64,000 bases of DNA from contig CAIKAF010000013.1 of assembly GCA_903825395.1 (NCBI GenBank), positions 1 to 64,000 of the forward strand. The letters run 5' to 3'. Under the pieces are notes generated by a model that did no database searches, was not told the origin of the DNA, and saw only the letters and a program-made list of their open reading frames with translations. Below are positions 1,329-61,418 of this stretch, in pieces. The stretch is from an uncultured Flavobacteriales bacterium. GTDB lineage: Bacteria; Bacteroidota; Bacteroidia; CAIKAF01. The stretch's first letter is position 1, and every line of letters starts with the position of its first letter. The translations under genes were made by a program, and so were the position numbers.

Positions 1329-1490
1329 TGAATTGGCCCTGCGGCAGGGATGGAATAGGGTAGCCCGCAATGGATTGGCCCCGGCAAATGCTGGGTGAAG
1401 GGGGCGACCTTGGGAGCCACCCTGAGCCCTTCATTTTGCGGGGCCAAGACAGCGGACTACCCATGACAGCCCGTTTGCCGCCCCAATTTA
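1329..1490 (-). repeat. Structured intergenic element copy E1
   Basis: Minus-strand core GGTGGCTCCCAAGGTCGCC; variable stem TTGGCCCCG/CGGGGCCAA; outer arms AATTGG/CCAATT and GCGGCA/TGCCGC. Confidence 0.85.
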
Positions 1491-11905: not shown

Positions 11906-12058
11906 CGGCCTGCGGCCCGGATAGAGCAGGGGTAGCGCGCAAAGGGGCAGGGTTTGGCCTGCGCCCCCGGGCAGAGCGACTTTAGGAGCTACTGCCCGGC
12001 GGCTGCAGGCCCACCCTGCCACTGCGTACTACCCGCGATAGCCGGAATTGCCGCCCAA
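11906..12058 (-). repeat. Structured intergenic element copy E2
   Basis: Core TAGCTCCTAAAGTCGC; stems CCGGGCAG/CTGCCCGG and GGCAGGGT/ACCCTGCC. Confidence 0.8.
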
Positions 12059-13559: not shown

Positions 13560-13711
13560 GGGGCGGGTAACCGGGCTTTCACCGCTAGTCCGCGGTGGCC
13601 GGACGGGCTGGCAGCGGGCTGCGGTGGCTCCTAAAGTCGCCTCCTCGCCACGCGCCAGCTGCCGCCGGCCCCCTTGCGGGCAAGCCGGTTCAATCCCGCC
13701 CGCGGGCGGCA
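13560..13711 (+). repeat. Structured intergenic element copy E3
   Basis: Core GGTGGCTCCTAAAGTCGCC at 13623-13641; GGCGGG/CCCGCC outer stem; begins 20 nt after 13540 stop. Confidence 0.87.
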
Positions 13712-33974: not shown

Positions 33975-34126
33975 TGGGCGGTGGCCGGGCTTTCACCGGT
34001 AGTCCTCAATTACCGAAAGGCTGGCCCAGCGGGCTTGCGGTGGCTCCCAAGGTCGCCTCCGCGCCGCGCGGGCCAGGCTTCGGTAATTTTGCGGGCTACC
34101 CGGTTCAATCCCTACCGCAAAGCCCC
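33975..34126 (+). repeat. Structured intergenic element copy E4
   Basis: Core GGTGGCTCCCAAGGTCGCC at 34039-34057; stem AATTACCGAA/TTCGGTAATT and CTGGCCC/GGGCCAG; begins 14 nt after 33961 stop. Confidence 0.88.
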
Positions 34127-37241: not shown

Positions 37242-37321
37242 AAGTTGCCCTAAAGTGAAACAATGTCCTAAAAATTCATTTTGTTTTTCGAGTAGATCAG
37301 ATTGTTAAAATCGCATCTAAC

Positions 37322-37655
37322 GGCAGTTCGTTTAAAAACTGCTTTTCAAATAAATAATCCTCCCAATATTACCCCATTTTTTGACATTGAAGCATGCCGG
37401 AGGAAAGGTGCACAAAAATTCAGGCTCCAAATTTAGAAATCCAGAATGCTTGAAAACGTCCTTAAATGGCCTCTGAAATGGCTAAAATAAAGGCCCAAGC
37501 CTTTTAGGTAGGCTTTGAGCAGGTTTATATCTAAAATGTTAAAGGTGCACCGCAGGTTGTAGGCCGTAAATATCATTTCCACATCGGAAGAGGCGTGTTT
37601 GATGCTCCTTTTGGTCATGATGTAGTAAAAATCCCAATGCCGTTTTGATTCAATT
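37322..37655 (-). mobile_element. IS1182-like transposase C-terminus plus IS end, remnant A
   Basis: SKRHWDFYYIMTKRSIKHASSDVEMIFTAYNLRCTFNILDINLLK; downstream tail shared with 38850, 40130 and 41841. Confidence 0.75.
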
Positions 37656-37904
37656 CTTACCTTAATTTACACGGAAATTAGTATAACCCGAACAACTAAA
37701 CCTCCAATGTTCCTAAGAACTGGTTTTGTAGTTTGTGGCAAGGATAATCTGCCATTACTTCCAGAACTTTACTGAGCCATTTTTCGGGATTTATGCCGTT
37801 AAGTTGGCAGTTTGCGAAGAAAGTATAGAAAATTGCTATTCTATTTACGCCCGTTTGTGATCGAACAAACAGGTAATTTTGCGCCCCAGGTCATTTCATG
37901 GCTC

Positions 37905-38645
37905 TTAAAGCTGTATCTCTTCGATAAGCCATTTGTTCGTTTCCTGGTCTAGTTTCTTCAACGTCAAACTATTGCTTTTCTTTTGCAAAATAATTTCAGT
38001 AGGAGTGCGGTCTCCCAAGCTAAAACCGCCCTTGTTTTTCATCAACAATTGGGTGTATGAATGACCGTTGTAAGTAACAGCGGATAGTTCAAATTGAACA
38101 AAAACCAAGTTGATATAAACCCCTGAGGAGTTCTCATTTTCCTCTATAAATTTTAAAACATGTGTTTTATTATTTAACATCCCCAACCACTTGTACTTAT
38201 AATAATCAAAACTGGCATCAAAATCCGACTTTTCCTTTGCAACAACAAATCCGTCTTCGGTTACAGAAATGGGTTCAGAGGAAAAAAAGAGATTGGCATC
38301 GGATGAGGCCATTATATCCAATGCCATGTACGACGGTATCGGATCTGAAATCCAAGGAACGAACGTTTTAACCAACATGGGATTAATGGGATTTCCTTTA
38401 AACGTGAAATGGGTATTTACTTCGTTTAAATCAAGGCTATCCACCTTCAGTATTTTTGCAGAATATACCGAATCGGTCGATTCATAATCCTCCTTTTCAA
38501 CGTCTTGTTTCTGAACTTCCATTGTACTGTTAGTGGTAGCGGAAGGTTGAACCACTGCTAGCTTATTTTGACAGGCAATGGTTAATAATCCAAACGAAAG
38601 CAAAAGGCTATTTCTAAGGTTGAAATTTGAATACGTTGGTTTCAT
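37905..38645 (-). CDS. Putative lipoprotein of unknown function
   Basis: MKPTYSNFNLRNSLLLSFGLLTIACQ lipobox-like N-terminus; open frame. Confidence 0.65.
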   Translation of the reverse strand: MKPTYSNFNLRNSLLLSFGLLTIACQNKLAVVQPSATTNSTMEVQKQDVEKEDYESTDSVYSAKILKVDSLDLNEVNTHFTFKGNPINPMLVKTFVPWISDPIPSYMALDIMASSDANLFFSSEPISVTEDGFVVAKEKSDFDASFDYYKYKWLGMLNNKTHVLKFIEENENSSGVYINLVFVQFELSAVTYNGHSYTQLLMKNKGGFSLGDRTPTEIILQKKSNSLTLKKLDQETNKWLIEEIQL

Positions 38646-38847
38646 CCTAACCTTTAATTTAGTACCAAACCCGCTATGTTTCATGCAAGCTGTGGGAGGT
38701 TCGTTGTTCTTTTTGTCCATTTATTTCAGTTTCTTCATTGCGTTACTTTCAAGCAAGGATTTCATTTGGGTTATCGCTACTTTGTTTAGTTCGATAAGAC
38801 GTTCTTTTTGCATTAATCCTTGTCTGATTTGTTTTATTGTTGTTAAC

Positions 38848-38995
38848 GGCAGTTTGTCTAAAAACTGCCTTTAAATAAATAATCCTCTCAAAATTACCCC
38901 ATTTTTTGACATTTAAGCCTGCCACAGAAAAGGCACCCATAAATTCCGGCTACCAACCCAAAAAACCGGAATGTCCGAAAACGGCCTTAACTTGC
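38848..38995 (-). mobile_element. IS-end remnant B (non-coding tail only)
   Basis: CGGCAGTTTGTCTAAAAACTGCC...ATAAATAATCCTCTCAAAATTACCCCATTTTTTGACATTTAAGC; close match to other copies. Confidence 0.7.
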
Positions 38996-39311
38996 CGCTG
39001 CCAATAAGCACGTGATTGTGAGTGCCATGGATACAACCTTAAAAAAACTCTTGAAATTCAAGTCTAAAAATGTCCTAGAAGCAATCCAAATACTGCCTCA
39101 GTCAGAAAAGGTGGCGGCTTTTTGTAAAATCGTATTTTTAGAACTCAAACAAGCCATTTTAAGGCACTTTTTTTTCCAGAAAAATTTAGTTAATCCCAAA
39201 AGTGCCTCTTTTAAAAGGCCTGTATTCAAAGGTTTTTTGACAAAATTCCAACTTTTTAGATTTTAAAAGGGATGTGCAACAGACACTGATGTTATGCGGT
39301 GCAGTTTAGCT

Positions 39312-39794
39312 CTATATTTCATTGCTTAATTCAAGAATTCTTTCGATGAAACTATCGCTCAACCAAACTCCTTTTTCTCTCAATTCAAAAATCAATGGTT
39401 TCAGTTCAGAAATTAATGCCTGTTTTTTAGCCTTTATTAAAATTCCAATTGTTCCAGTCACGTTTAACCCAGCATGCTTGGCATGATATCTTCCCAAAGA
39501 TTCGTCTATCAATATTAAATCTGCTTCGGTTTCAGTTGCAAGAATAATTGCCTCTGCTTCTCCTTTGTCTAAATCAAGGAAGTATGCAATTGATTTTCTG
39601 TCTTGAATTTGTTCAATTTTAATCCATTTAAATTCTAACAAATTCAAGTAATAATTTTTATGTTTTCCGGCTTCAATTTCATTGTAGACTTCTTGAGGAA
39701 TATAAATTTCTTCATACAAATCCTTTAAAATTTCAAGTTTCCCAATTTTCATTAATGAAATAATTGGGGTTGTGTTTGATACAACTTTAGGCAT
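39312..39794 (-). CDS. DUF3368/PIN-like toxin
   Basis: VVSNTTPIISLMKIGKLEILKDLY, EVYNEIEAGKH, LDKGEAEAIILATETEADLILIDESLGR. Confidence 0.85.
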   Translation of the reverse strand: MPKVVSNTTPIISLMKIGKLEILKDLYEEIYIPQEVYNEIEAGKHKNYYLNLLEFKWIKIEQIQDRKSIAYFLDLDKGEAEAIILATETEADLILIDESLGRYHAKHAGLNVTGTIGILIKAKKQALISELKPLIFELREKGVWLSDSFIERILELSNEI

Positions 39795-40035
39795 TTTCGA
39801 TATCCTGAGCTAAATCGTCGGAATGAAGAAAGCTAACATTGTACTTTGACAAAAGTTCCAAAAATTCTATTCTAGAAATATTCAATACTTTCGCTGCAAT
39901 TCCTGATGAAACTTTTCCTAACTCAAAAAGTTTGACTAGAGCTGAAAGTTTAACTTCTTTGCCAAAGTCCTCTTTATTCAGCCTCATTGAATTTGCCAAA
40001 TAATCAGGGTACTCTATTGATATTATTTGCGCCAT
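39787..40035 (-). CDS. UPF0175-like antitoxin
   Basis: MAQIISIEYPDYLANSMRLNKEDFGKEVKLSALVKLFELGKVSSGIAAKVLNISRIEFLELL; overlaps DUF3368 start by 8 nt. Confidence 0.83.
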   Translation of the reverse strand: MAQIISIEYPDYLANSMRLNKEDFGKEVKLSALVKLFELGKVSSGIAAKVLNISRIEFLELLSKYNVSFLHSDDLAQDIENA

Positions 40036-40130
40036 AACTTTGTTGTCGTGTTTGTTCCAAATATAAGAAAAAATCATACGCCATTGTTTAAAAAAATAAT
40101 TGGCTGCCGGTCGCCTGCTTTCGCATAACG

Positions 40131-40510
40131 GCAGTTCGTCTACTCCCTTTTTTTAATAAATAATCCTCTTAAAATTAGCCCATTATTTTGACATTTAAGC
40201 ATGCCACAGAAAAGGCGCCCAAAAATTCCGGCTACCAACCAAGAAATCCCGAATGCCTTAAATTGCCTATAAAATGGCCAAAAAATGGCCGGGCCTTTAG
40301 CTTTTCGAGTTGGCGGCTGGAGCGGATGCGGTTCAGGTAGCCGCAAATAAAAAGGCGGAGCAAAGCACCGGGGTGGTATGCCGGCCGGCCATTTTCCTCA
40401 AAATCGACAATCAAATCGAGATCACTTTTATCCTTGAACGTTTCTCGTAAACCTGAACCAGACGCAAAGAGCTTAGAAATGTGTGTATTCTGCAAAGTCT
40501 GACTATGTCA
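40131..40510 (-). pseudogene. MNT nucleotidyltransferase fragment fused to IS1182-like transposase N-terminus plus IS end, remnant C
   Basis: SKLFASGSGLRETFKDKSDLDLIVDFE joined to ENGRPAYHPGALLRLFICGYLNRIRSSRQLEKL, then IS tail shared with the other remnants. Confidence 0.7.
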
Positions 40511-40771
40511 TCCATATTCTGTTTCAGCAGTTTCATTCTTTAAATTTTCGAATAATTGCCAATGAATGTCAGGTAGGTAGCGGTATGCACTGTGGCGAGA
40601 AAAATCGCCTGTTTTGAATCATGGCAGAGGCTCAAAACACAGAAGCAGCCCTTCTACATTTCTAAAATCATATAGAAAAACCCATAGAGGAAATACAGCG
40701 GTTCGTTTAATGCATTTTTCAAGCTGGACGCTGCACGCCGCACGAAAGGAAAGCTGGTAGCAGTATTGGCT

Positions 40772-41755
40772 CTATTTGGCGTCCCGCTCATTGTCAAACA
40801 GTTCGTGCAGCTTTTGTTGTAAAAGTTTCTTGTCTGGTAGTTGTGTTTTATACTCTGATACCATCGTAGGAGAGAGGCTTCTACTTAAAGCATATTCTAC
40901 AACTTCACTGTCTTTGTCCTTGCATAACAAAACTCCAATGCTCGGATTCTCATTTGGCTTCTTAACGTCTCTGTCTAATGCTTCCAAGTAAAAATTTAGC
41001 TGGCCCAAGTGGTCGGGTTTGAATTTGTCTGCTTTGAGTTCAATTGCCACTAAACATTGTATTCCACGATGGTAAAAAAGCAAGTCAATGTAAAAGTCGC
41101 TGTTGCCAACTTGCAACTTATATTCTTCTCCTATGAATAAAAAGTCCTTCCCGAGTTCGAGAATGAAATTTTTCATTTGTCTTACAAGTCCACGCTGTAA
41201 ATCGCTCTCACTGTGTGGGTCAGGTAGGTTTAAAAATTCAAATACATAGCTGTCTTTGAATGTGTTTGATAGGTCATTGTTGCTTTCTCTCACCGCTGGT
41301 GAGAGTTTTGAATTGCCGATCATTGTCCGCTCGAAAAAGCTTGCAGATAGTTGTCGGTCAAGTTCTCGTTTACTGTAGTTTTCTTGTTTTACGAGTTTTA
41401 GGTAGAATTCCATTTCTTCAATAGTTTTACACCTTGAAAAAATTAGAAGATTGTTTGTCCAGCTAATTTCTCTCACCAGTGGTGAGAGTTTTGGGAAGTC
41501 TTTGTAAATCTCGTAAAACTGCTTCATTCTCCAAATATTTTTGTCGGAGAAGCCTTTTATTTCTGGTTCTTGTGCCTGTATGAAATTAGCTAATTCTGTT
41601 ACTACAGAGTCACCCCATTCTGATTGCTCAATTTTCTTGCTGATATATTCTCAAATGTTCCAATAGAGGTTTATCAGTTCAGCGTTTACAGCTTTTATGG
41701 CATTAGTCCGAGATTGTTTAATGAGTTGAATTATGTCCGTAAAACGATTGTCCAT
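40772..41755 (-). pseudogene. DUF1016 (YhcG-like, PDDEXK) gene with one in-frame TGA
   Basis: MDNRFTDIIQLIKQSRTNAIKAVNAELINLYWNI*EYISKKIEQSEWGDSVVTELANFIQ...; nuclease part DFLFIGEEYKLQVGNSDFYIDLLFYHRGIQCLVAIELK intact; TGA = 41651-41653. Confidence 0.88.
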
Positions 41756-41840
41756 TGCTTATTTCTAAATGCTACAAATTGATGTTTTTTCAGTCGTGTT
41801 TCTCTTTTGAAACCGGTTTTCTGCCATTGCTACTAAGGTC

Positions 41841-42130
41841 AGTTCATCAAAAAACTCCCTTTTAAATAAATAATCCTCTCAAATTTACCCCATTCTTTTG
41901 ACATTTAAGCATACCACTGAAAAGGTGCACAAAAATTCCGGCTCCAAATTTAGAAATCCAGAATGACTGAAAATGGCCAAAATTAAAGGCCAAAGCCCTT
42001 TAGGTATGTTTTGAGCAGGTTTAAATCTAAAATGTTAAAGGTGCGTCGCAGGTTGTAGGCCGTAAATATCATTCCCACATCGGAAGAGGCGTGTTTGATG
42101 CTCCTATTGGTCATGTAAAAAAACTTCATT
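41841..42130 (-). mobile_element. IS1182-like transposase C-terminus plus IS end, remnant D
   Basis: MTNRSIKHASSDVGMIFTAYNLRRTFNILDLNLLKTYLKGFGL; near-duplicate of remnant A. Confidence 0.75.
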
Positions 42131-42139
42131 TTTTCACCA

Positions 42140-42291
42140 CCACGCCCGCGGCAGGGATTGAACCGGGTTGCCCGCAAGGGGGCCGGCGGCCGCTGCCGCG
42201 TGGCGAGGAGGCGACCTTGGGAGCCACCGCAGCCCGCTGGCAGCCCGCCCGGCCACCGCGGACAACCGGTGAAAGCCCGTCCGCCGCCCCC
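42140..42291 (-). repeat. Structured intergenic element copy E5
   Basis: Minus-strand core GGTGGCTCCCAAGGTCGCC (42210-42228); abuts IS remnant D. Confidence 0.87.
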
Positions 42292-55823: not shown

Positions 55824-56676
55824 TGCCAATTCTTCCTTTAATTCCTTTTTACATCAAGCATTTAACGAGGATGGTTCTGATTTGGGCGATGTAACCTCAT
55901 TGGGCATTTTCGGGAAGCATCAACAGGCAAAGGCCCTGTGGTTGGCCAAAGAAGATGGAGTGTTTTCTGGGGCTCAGTACATTGCACCGATTTTTCAATT
56001 TGTTGACCCCAATGCGCAATGCAATCTGTTGATTCATGATGGCCAACCTTTTCATTCAGGAGATGTATTGTTGGAAGTTCATGGGCTGGCTCATGCCTTG
56101 CTCTCCAGCGAACGCATTGCCTTGAACCTGGTGCAGCGCATGTGCGGCATTGCCACCAAAACCCATACCCTCTGCCAACGCATAGCTCATACCCATTGCC
56201 GCTTGTTGGATACGCGCAAAACAACTCCGCTGCTGCGCAGTTTTGAAAAAGAAGCGGTAAGGCATGGGGGAGGTCAAAATCACCGCATCGGACTTTTCGA
56301 TATGTGCATGATTAAAGACAACCATCGGGATTTTGCCGGTGGCATTACCCCCGCATTTCAACGCCTAACACAGTACTTGAAATCCCAACATTTGGATTTG
56401 CCGATTGAAATCGAAACCCGCAACCTCGACGACGTAGCTGAAGTTCTTGCTTTACATGCACCCGTTAAACGCATCATGTTTGATAATTTCAGTCCCGAGC
56501 AGGTCCGCCTGGCCGTAAATTTGGTGCAGGGCTCCATCGAAACCGAAGCCAGCGGAGGCATCAATGAGTCCAATTTGGTCAGCTATGCTGAAACAGGAGT
56601 AGATTTCATTTCTATGGGAGCCTTAACCCATTCGGTTCGAAGCATCGATATTAGTATGAAAGCGTTTCTGCCATGA
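55816..56676 (+). CDS. nadC: Nicotinate-nucleotide pyrophosphorylase (carboxylating)
   Basis: ERIALNLVQRMCGIATKT, LLDTRKTTPLLRSFEKEAVRHGGGQNHRIGLFDMCMIKDNH, EASGGI. Confidence 0.96.
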   Translation: MIDANSSFNSFLHQAFNEDGSDLGDVTSLGIFGKHQQAKALWLAKEDGVFSGAQYIAPIFQFVDPNAQCNLLIHDGQPFHSGDVLLEVHGLAHALLSSERIALNLVQRMCGIATKTHTLCQRIAHTHCRLLDTRKTTPLLRSFEKEAVRHGGGQNHRIGLFDMCMIKDNHRDFAGGITPAFQRLTQYLKSQHLDLPIEIETRNLDDVAEVLALHAPVKRIMFDNFSPEQVRLAVNLVQGSIETEASGGINESNLVSYAETGVDFISMGALTHSVRSIDISMKAFLP

Positions 56677-57569
56677 AGGGCCGTTGGATTGGGTTCTTGC
56701 TTGGCAAACCCGAACTTCAAGGTTGGCTGAAGAAAGTACAATCGTTTTCCCCGCCTGGATTCGGCGGAGTTTCCTTGTGGCGCATCGCCAATTACTTTTT
56801 AAACGGTGATCAACGCAACAGCTTGTCGCTGCGCGCTTCATCTGTAGCATTCCAACTGATGCTCGCCTTTTTCCCCTTTTTGATATTTCTGGTGAGCTTG
56901 ATTCCATTTTTTCCGGGAGGGCAACTGGGGTATGAGTGGTTTCGGTTGAGCGAGGAGCTTCTGCCGCCGGCTCTTTTTGAAGTGGTTGGTCCCATCATTG
57001 CCGATGTACTTCTGAAAAAAAGGGAGGGCTTTGTATGGATTACTTTGTTTGTTGGATTATGGCTCTCTTCAGCCGGAATAAAGGGATTGATTCAGGCCTT
57101 CAATGCCTCTGCTTTAATTTTAGAAGAACGAAAACCCGGCCAAGTTCGAATTATTTCGCTGTTGGTAATGCTGCTGGGCAGCTTGGCCTTAGGCTTGGCC
57201 ATCACAATTTTTCAGGCCATAGACTTTTTATCTGGAACGTTCGCCTGGCTTTCAAGTCGCTTGGGCTGGTTGTTTAGCCTCGGCATGACATGGGTGTTTG
57301 TGGCGGCCTTATTTCGCATTGCGCCGGCAAAATCCTTGGGACTTCGCTTTTTCTCAGCTGGAAGTTGGATTGCTTCCCTGTTTTTACTCTTATTCTCTTG
57401 GGCTTTTGGGCTCTATGTTGAGCAATTTTTCCAATACAACAAGGTGTTTGGAGTGGTGGGCGCCGTTCCAATGGCTATGATTTTTTTATACCTGGCTGCT
57501 TTGGCCTTGCTCATTGGATTTGATGTGGATGCCGGAATTGCAAGGGGGAAGGCGGCTTCAAAAGGTTGA
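56673..57569 (+). CDS. YihY/BrkB-family inner membrane protein
   Basis: NSLSLRASSVAFQLMLAFFPFLIFLVSLIPFFP; multi-TM. Confidence 0.85.
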   Translation: MKGRWIGFLLGKPELQGWLKKVQSFSPPGFGGVSLWRIANYFLNGDQRNSLSLRASSVAFQLMLAFFPFLIFLVSLIPFFPGGQLGYEWFRLSEELLPPALFEVVGPIIADVLLKKREGFVWITLFVGLWLSSAGIKGLIQAFNASALILEERKPGQVRIISLLVMLLGSLALGLAITIFQAIDFLSGTFAWLSSRLGWLFSLGMTWVFVAALFRIAPAKSLGLRFFSAGSWIASLFLLLFSWAFGLYVEQFFQYNKVFGVVGAVPMAMIFLYLAALALLIGFDVDAGIARGKAASKG

Positions 57570-57582
57570 TTTTAGGTTTGAT

Positions 57583-57736
57583 TTGGGCGGCAGACGGGCT
57601 TTCAGGGCTAGTCCGCTTCAAAAGCTGATCGGTACAGCGGCTTTGCGGGGGCTTCCAAGGTCGCCTCCGCAGCTCGCGTACCGTTCAGCTTTTGTGCGCG
57701 TACTAGCTCCTTCAATCCCTGCCGCGGGGCGGCGAT
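57583..57736 (+). repeat. Structured intergenic element copy E6
   Basis: Near-perfect variable stem CAAAAGCTGAtCGGTAC/GTACCGtTCAGCTTTTG; core GGGGGCTTCCAAGGTCGCC (57648-57666); begins 14 nt after 57569 stop. Confidence 0.88.
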
Positions 57737-57796: not shown

Positions 57797-58801
57797 TTAG
57801 GACATTTTTCCAACCAAAACGCACAAATCTGCCAAGCGGTTTGAATAGCCGGCTTCATTGTCATACCAGCCAAATACCTTTACTAGGTTGTCTTTAACAA
57901 AGGTCAGTTCAGCATCAAATATGCAGGAATGTGGATTTCCTACAATGTCTGCCGATACAATCGGATCTTCGGTGTATTCTAAAATTCCTTTTAATTCATT
58001 TTCCGCCGCCTTTTTAAACGCCGCGTTTAAGGTTGCCGCATCCACAGGATTGCGAACAATGAGCGACATGTCAGTTAGACTGCCCGTGGGCGTTGGTACC
58101 CGAACGGAAGTCCCATCCAATTTGCCACTCAAATGGGGGAAAATTTTTCCGATGGCACGCGCAGCACCAGTAGATGTTGGAACCAACGACAAGGCAGCAG
58201 CCCGTGCCCGACGCAAATCGCTATGCGGTGCATCCTGCAAGCGCTGGTCGGCCGTATAGGCATGAATGGTATTCATAAAACCATTTTCAATTCCACATAC
58301 ATCATCTACTATTTTAACCAAAGGACTCACGCAATTCGTGGTGCAAGAAGCATTGGAAATAATCGTGTCGGACGGTGTTAAGCTGCCTTCATTGGCACCC
58401 AAAACCACCATTTTAATGTCTGAGGTTTTAGCTGGAGCAGACAAAAGCACTTTTTTAGCTCCCGCCTGCATGTGTCTAGATGCACTTTCTGAATCTAAAA
58501 ATAATCCTGTGCACTCCAAAACCACATCAATATTCATTTCTTTCCACGGCAGTTCCGCAGGATTTTTAATGGCAGTTATTCGAATTTCATGACCGTTTAC
58601 CACAAGATTTCCTTCTTGGGTGCTTACCGTGCCCGAAAATCTTCCATGAATGGAATCGTATTTCAATAAGTGGGCTAGGGCAGTGGCCCCTGTCAAATCA
58701 TTGATGGCAACGACTTCAACATCTTCTTTGGTTTGTAATGCCCGAAAGGTGATGCGGCCAATTCGACCAAATCCATTGATAGCAACCCGAACTTTTTTCA
58801 T
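57797..58801 (-). CDS. gap: Glyceraldehyde-3-phosphate dehydrogenase
   Basis: VRVAINGFGRIGRITFRAL, SNASCTTNCVSPLVKIVDD, GKLDGTSVRVPTPTGSL. Confidence 0.97.
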   Translation of the reverse strand: MKKVRVAINGFGRIGRITFRALQTKEDVEVVAINDLTGATALAHLLKYDSIHGRFSGTVSTQEGNLVVNGHEIRITAIKNPAELPWKEMNIDVVLECTGLFLDSESASRHMQAGAKKVLLSAPAKTSDIKMVVLGANEGSLTPSDTIISNASCTTNCVSPLVKIVDDVCGIENGFMNTIHAYTADQRLQDAPHSDLRRARAAALSLVPTSTGAARAIGKIFPHLSGKLDGTSVRVPTPTGSLTDMSLIVRNPVDAATLNAAFKKAAENELKGILEYTEDPIVSADIVGNPHSCIFDAELTFVKDNLVKVFGWYDNEAGYSNRLADLCVLVGKMS

Positions 58802-61263: not shown

Positions 61264-61418
61264 TTCGCCGCCGGCGGGCGGGATTGATTCCGTGTAGCGC
61301 GCAAAGATGCCGTCGGTAGGCGGCGCGCGGCGAGGAGGCGACTTTAGGAGCCACCGCAGCCCGCAGCCGCCCCGAACGGCAGCTGCGTACTACCGGAGAA
61401 AGCCCGGTCACCCGCCCA
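61264..61418 (-). repeat. Structured intergenic element copy E7
   Basis: Minus-strand core GGTGGCTCCTAAAGTCGCC (61338-61356); GCGGG/CCCGC outer stem; begins 14 nt after the minus-strand stop at 61432. Confidence 0.87.

Follow-up and report, generated by a model that had tools for sequence, protein, structure and literature searches.

Does the long imperfect hairpin at positions 57585..57728 of the window (the whole stretch analysed here, 64,000 nucleotides) persist for the sake of its fold, and does it act as DNA or as RNA? Dispersed bacterial hairpin repeats are mostly treated as decaying mobile DNA. The initial annotation had compared several copies of this hairpin and claimed that the arms differ in sequence and stay complementary, and that selection acts on the fold rather than on the letters of the arm. 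By proposing SHAPE/DMS probing, it also implied a role as RNA.

We searched with a covariance model trained on 30 copies. The model gave exact bounds of 57585..57728 on the + strand for this copy (E6), a 144 nt imperfect hairpin scoring 150.9 bits, and found seven copies within the window. E6 occupies the 227 nt that separate a ribonuclease BN-like gene (56673-57569, +) from gapdh (57797-58801, -), both named by reading the sequence. At least 152 different copies, each 143-148 nt long, occur in the organism's own 2.63 Mb genome, that of an uncultured lake-type Bacteroidetes bacterium. The parts of E6 and the other copies in the window are as follows.

57588..57593, + strand: 5' strand of the basal helix (CGGCAG region), with its partner CTGCCG near 57719-57725 (RNAalifold, pair counts)
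57596..57604 (approximate), + strand: 5' side of conserved internal loop 1, GGGCTTTCA (invariant columns)
57607..57616 (approximate), + strand: 5' strand of the lower covarying helix, with a conserved T.G pair, CTAGTCCGC (RNAalifold, pair counts)
57618..57634 (approximate), + strand: 5' strand of the variable arm, CAAAAGCTGATCGGTAC
57635..57677, + strand: conserved apex, AGCGG...GGCTTCCAAGGTCGCC...GCTCGC, with internal loop TC/TC (GA/AG on the other strand)
57678..57695, + strand: 3' strand of the variable arm, GTACCGTTCAGCTTTTG
57696..57728, + strand: 3' strand of the lower helix, 3' side of loop 1 (TTCAAT) and basal helix, CCCTGCCGC (RNAalifold)
1338..1483, - strand: copy E1, central arm divergent, also in G003 (96.1 bits)
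11909..12056, - strand: copy E2, central arm divergent; orthologous site filled in G003, G001 and G005, with covariation in place (98.0 bits)
13561..13706, + strand: copy E3, found in G003 too but not in G001 or G005 (114.7 bits)
33976..34121, + strand: copy E4, orthologous copies in G003 and G001 (157.4 bits)
42145..42289, - strand: copy E5, with an ortholog in G005 and a partly deleted remnant in G001 (119.8 bits)
61271..61417, - strand: copy E7, orthologs in G003, G001 and G005 (112 bits)

On the strand read here, the basal helix of the copies is GCGGCA/TGCCGC with a short bulge, followed by GGG/CCC, and the element termini are GGGCGGC and GCCGC(NGG). The internal loop CTTTC/TCAAT includes two A-T pairs. 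The lower helix GTAGTCC/GGGCTAC covaries around a constant one-base bulge and the conserved T.G pair. Next comes the variable arm, about 20 base pairs long, then an A bulge, another conserved helix and finally the apex, GGC-TCC(C/T)(A/G)A(A/G)GTC-GCC. Fixed mismatches are T.C (pyrimidine-pyrimidine) on this strand and tandem G.A on the complementary strand. Across the own and related genomes the G+C content of the copies spans 34% to 79%, with the length staying near 145 nt. A separate repeat family was also seen in the window at 37319-42115, with four diverged repeats of ~123-137 nt at intervals of 1.3-1.7 kb and a further repeat of 136 nt (93% identical).

All the variable arms that had been quoted for E6, E4, E1 and E2 were located in the sequence, as were the quoted strands of the lower helix; the internal loop CTTTCA opposite TTCAAT is conserved, as described. 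RNAalifold on 30 copies showed kept double changes in 28 of 40 pairs, and 119 distinct own copies raised this to 35 of 40. In these 119 copies, 96.2% of helix cells pair, compared with 76.6% in shuffled data and 34-51% in slid controls, and 785 cells carry a change on both sides while one-sided standard changes amount to a handful. Because the RNAalifold and pair-count alignments were fitted to the model, an extra phylogeny-aware test took a MAFFT alignment and simulated columns along a FastTree tree, using an R-scape-like script of our own and not R-scape itself. The results showed 44 column pairs exceeding every null value of the simulation, of which 24 are exact helix pairs and 5 more lie within 1 nt of one; helix pairs make up 0.55% of all pairs tested. 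Covariation thus exceeded phylogenetic expectation in the larger alignment, the point on which the initial annotation had staked its claim.

We compared orthologous loci in three species, G003 (~97% identical over 20 kb) and G001 and G005 (both ~75%). The 48 own-G003 locus pairs, whose G003 elements were partly picked by model score in a way that may favour conserved copies, showed element sequences free of indels, with 91 substitutions over 6,971 sites (1.3%). In the flanking 40 nt of the same pairs, divergence reached 6.4%, with 3% gaps, and the constraint ended sharply at both element edges. With pairing judged in both genomes, divergence was 0.9% at paired and 1.0% at unpaired core sites, and 2.3% at paired and 3.8% at unpaired arm sites (p=0.13, not significant). 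Three of these classes were clearly below the flanks; unpaired arm sites were the exception. A claim that paired arm sites evolve six-fold more slowly than unpaired ones was dropped, because pairing had been judged in one genome only, which biased the count; once pairing is judged symmetrically, the difference is not significant.

Changes in place followed the pairing. E6 differs between the own genome and G003 at only three points, which include a C-G to T-A double change. Between G001 and G005, E6 reads GCCAAAACA/TGTTTTGGC versus GCCAGAAAT/ATTTCTGGC, a paired change in place, and E2 reads GTGGG/CCCAC versus GTTTG/CAAAC, also in place. At greater species distance, arms were swapped for other complementary arms; at short distance, single changes were far more numerous than doubles. 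The in-place double changes together with the conserved loops indicate that the loops are kept as sequence and the arms as pairing. The fold is under selection, given covariation above phylogeny, low divergence relative to the flanks and paired changes at orthologous loci. The proposal of selection on fold and not on arm sequence therefore stood on covariation, on double changes in place and on 1.3% divergence against ~6% in the flanks, but paired and unpaired arm sites did not differ significantly over the short own-G003 distance.

The set of copies is not static. Both the own genome and G003 carry E3 and the L118:7892 copy, which G001 and G005 lack, and half of E5 is deleted in G001; copies therefore come and go, and the sites empty in related species indicate that not every copy is essential. 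The filled and empty versions of L118:7892, the sole site that could be judged, differ by extra flanking DNA with no clean target-site duplication such as marks YPAL insertions. Paralogs within the own genome reach 96% identity with none above, while own-G003 orthologs stand at ~98.7%, so no copy postdating the own-G003 split was seen. Four species hardly differ in copy number (144, 149 and, in two of them, at least 150), and two more distant species have 24 strong matches each. An element that is old and partly mobile is the best reading of these data. We also observed that contigs in the fragmented assembly of G003 (C222, C26, C240, C154 and C45) often break off at or within an element, so short-read assemblies may lose copies. 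The flanks are T-rich and C-poor at 5' -1 to -20 and often carry CNCTCAAAA at 3' +5 to +16, and they are not conserved between the own genome and G003. This flank composition may record an insertion preference, e.g. beside terminator T-tracts.

The search models were widened stepwise (R2, then R3). The widened models found relatives in 22 of 119 related genomes, and in 104 of 395 Bacteroidia genomes and 49 of 195 genera, patchily over the class. The divergent relatives have the same length and loop pattern. In the distant-genome rows of alignment A8, some of which trained the model, 86.5% of cells pair versus 53.6% after shuffling. The core pattern also matches uncultured Flavobacteriales/Bacteroidetes MAGs (ErkenSummer bin-6618, casp15-mb.160 and K_DeepCast_35m_m2_130). 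It is possible, though less likely than not, that the element is an ancient, class-wide Bacteroidia hairpin of ~145 nt represented by tens to hundreds of copies, all individually selected for their fold, with loops read by a structure-specific factor and arms drifting between 34% and 79% G+C.

We examined gene context, strand and mismatches for the level at which the fold may act. Copies lie ~50 nt from gene ends, often 3' of genes. Convergent gene pairs are enriched around them (51/142 vs 9/55 in the window), and copies are also found between divergent and tandem genes. Their orientation is random, both relative to tandem genes (34:35) and overall (82 + to 70 -, random within contigs). The ~6,970 helix cells of own copies contain 32 G-T and 48 A-C mismatches. 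A single site accounts for 15 of the A-C cases, and outside it the standing mismatches show no A-C surplus. Ortholog differences comprise 42 A-C versus 15 G-T events, a surplus hinting that the complementary strand tolerates wobble. In tandem contexts read in the transcript sense, wobbles showed no bias (20 vs 23). No T-tract follows the hairpin on either strand, the T-rich side being 5' and the A-rich side 3' on the strand read here. The rarity of wobbles, the random orientation and the lack of a T-tract speak for recognition as DNA, or for a function that needs both strands, rather than for a strand-specific RNA. The implied RNA role was accordingly not borne out, and a fold at the DNA level fits at least as well as an RNA fold.

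We tentatively prefer, with confidence a little short of even, the reading that this is a dispersed ~145 nt single-arm hairpin retained by the host lineage for its fold, at the DNA level, where a putative structure-specific protein recognises it. As a working mechanism, we infer a structure-specific contact with DNA. A nucleoid- or supercoil-related protein would recognise the hairpin in an extruded cruciform or in single-stranded DNA, through its conserved loops (apex GGCTCC..GGTCGCC, loop CTTTC/TCAAT) and not through the arm letters. The contact would work in either orientation, chiefly just 3' of genes and, in many cases, at the meeting point of supercoils between convergent genes, and the copies would stem from an older dispersal followed by slow gain and loss. 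Against this reading, tandem G.A is as typical of folded RNA as of single-stranded DNA, the A-C surplus among ortholog differences hints at tolerated wobble, and no protein partner for the element was found. No neighbour gene or protein common to the copies, and no larger element, appeared in 20 neighbourhoods of distant copies in few-copy genomes.

An action in RNA is the strongest competitor, and we consider it unlikely. Here the hairpin in a read-through transcript would protect, destabilise or process mRNA 3' ends, a role that has been suggested for ERIC and NEMIS. The position of the copies, often just downstream of genes, suits such a role, as do the tandem G.A mismatches conserved on the complementary strand and the very stable RNA fold of both strands (about -87.6 and -85.8 kcal/mol). 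Folding energy was rejected as a guide to the strand, as RNA parameters prefer one strand and DNA parameters the other, both slightly. Structured RNAs usually show far more wobble than the ~0.5% of helix cells found here, and transcript-sense wobbles are not in excess. ERIC in Yersinia does act on mRNA stability, but its effect is orientation-dependent (PMC2229807), while the copies studied here show no orientation preference.

We regard it as rather improbable that the copies are a non-autonomous mobile element, with the fold kept through transposition machinery acting in trans and no function for the host. Dispersal, the patchy distribution over the class, gains or losses between species and the highly similar paralogs all agree with mobility, as does the arrangement of element pairs less than 700 bp apart, which were tail-to-tail (+ then - on the strand read here) in 7 of 7 cases, e.g. 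C26:54732-55060 and C20:11987-12322 (G000). However, resident copies diverge about five-fold less than their flanks and carry no indels, which is not expected of mere fossils, and no copy appears younger than the own-G003 split. A Y1 transposase is the usual helper of hairpin repeats, and it is absent from G001 and G005. As a separate observation, the tail-to-tail arrangement of close pairs recurs in G002, G003, G004, G005 and G013.

A RAYT/Y1 partner was rejected: PF01797 was unmatched in the element-bearing genomes G001, G005, G013 and G014, and genomes with no element matches often have several PF01797 genes. The own genome's Y1 genes were also rejected as partners, the three being flanked by different, short palindromes. 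These Y1 transposase-like genes lie at G000:C5:11035-11382 (L032), G000:C26:29194-29358 (L033) and G000:C28:29201-29545 (L031). The palindromes around them, AGAGACGCACAATTGTGCGTCTCT, GGGGCAGACCTCCGTGTCTGCCCC and CACCCCTACGGGGT, are seemingly their own REP families, and in L033 such palindromes also lie within the reading frame. At L032:2150-2300, a copy of the hairpin has apparently been interrupted, or had its arm replaced, by the REP-like palindrome AGAGACGCACAATTGTGCGTCTCT.

Template switching at quasi-palindromes, a mutational correction keeping arms complementary with no selection, is very improbable. The simultaneous C-G to T-A change in E6 is what it would produce. However, unbiased correction makes half of new mutations double and cannot lower divergence far below neutral, while paired sites diverge by 0.9-2.3% against ~6% in the flanks, singles greatly outnumber doubles at short distance, and none of the conserved mismatches, bulges or loops has been corrected. 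Least credible of all are ordinary bidirectional transcription terminators grown long, since the enrichment of convergent pairs and the short, plain bidirectional terminator hairpin occupying the E6 site in G002 and G004 are outweighed by the missing 3' T-tract, a terminator scan that found none at the element, and the copies between divergent and tandem genes.

No Rfam model matched the window at gathering score, with only chance-level matches (E up to 5), and a literature search of papers outside subscription found no description of Bacteroidetes hairpin repeats. The element is a missing annotation family because no Rfam model matches, and the evidence points to an undescribed, structure-selected element. 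Resident copies show a measurable constraint that stops sharply at their ends, and their arms covary in place between species and over a bacterial class. Whether such repeats have a host function, and whether they act as DNA or RNA, thereby becomes a testable question.

Among known repeats, REP/REPIN units are 20-40 bp and tagged GTAG or CGTC (PMC3733652). The element shares with them the dispersed extragenic hairpins and the preference for inverted pairs, but it is 145 nt long, has no tag and requires no Y1 transposase. We rejected its GTAG/CTAC as a REP/REPIN tag: such a tag lies outside a 5-13 bp stem, while GTAG/CTAC lies inside a helix and is replaced by CTAG, GTTG or CAAG in copies and relatives. 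The bcr1 repeat of the Bacillus cereus group is intergenic, 147-167 nt long and has a predicted common structure (PMC2267715); compared by literature table only, it is similar in size and location but belongs to another phylum. ERIC (IRU) is an enterobacterial intergenic repeat of ~127 bp with about 100-240 copies in some genomes (PMC2267715, PMC2229807). It is likewise a long, single, imperfect hairpin of similar copy number, but it occurs in another phylum and is bounded by TA termini with short inverted repeats at its ends, neither of which the element has. The random orientation, whole-arm covariation and constrained resident copies of the element also set it apart from ERIC as described. 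YPAL (RU-2) of Yersinia is ~168 bp, long palindromic and intergenic, is not A+T-rich, has no TA termini and lies near dyad symmetries (PMC2229807). It is thus a long palindromic intergenic element of comparable size, but it has been described in Yersinia and Erwinia and is recently mobile, and PMC2229807 reports no class-wide covariation or in-place constraint for it. By size and habit, the element most closely resembles ERIC and YPAL.
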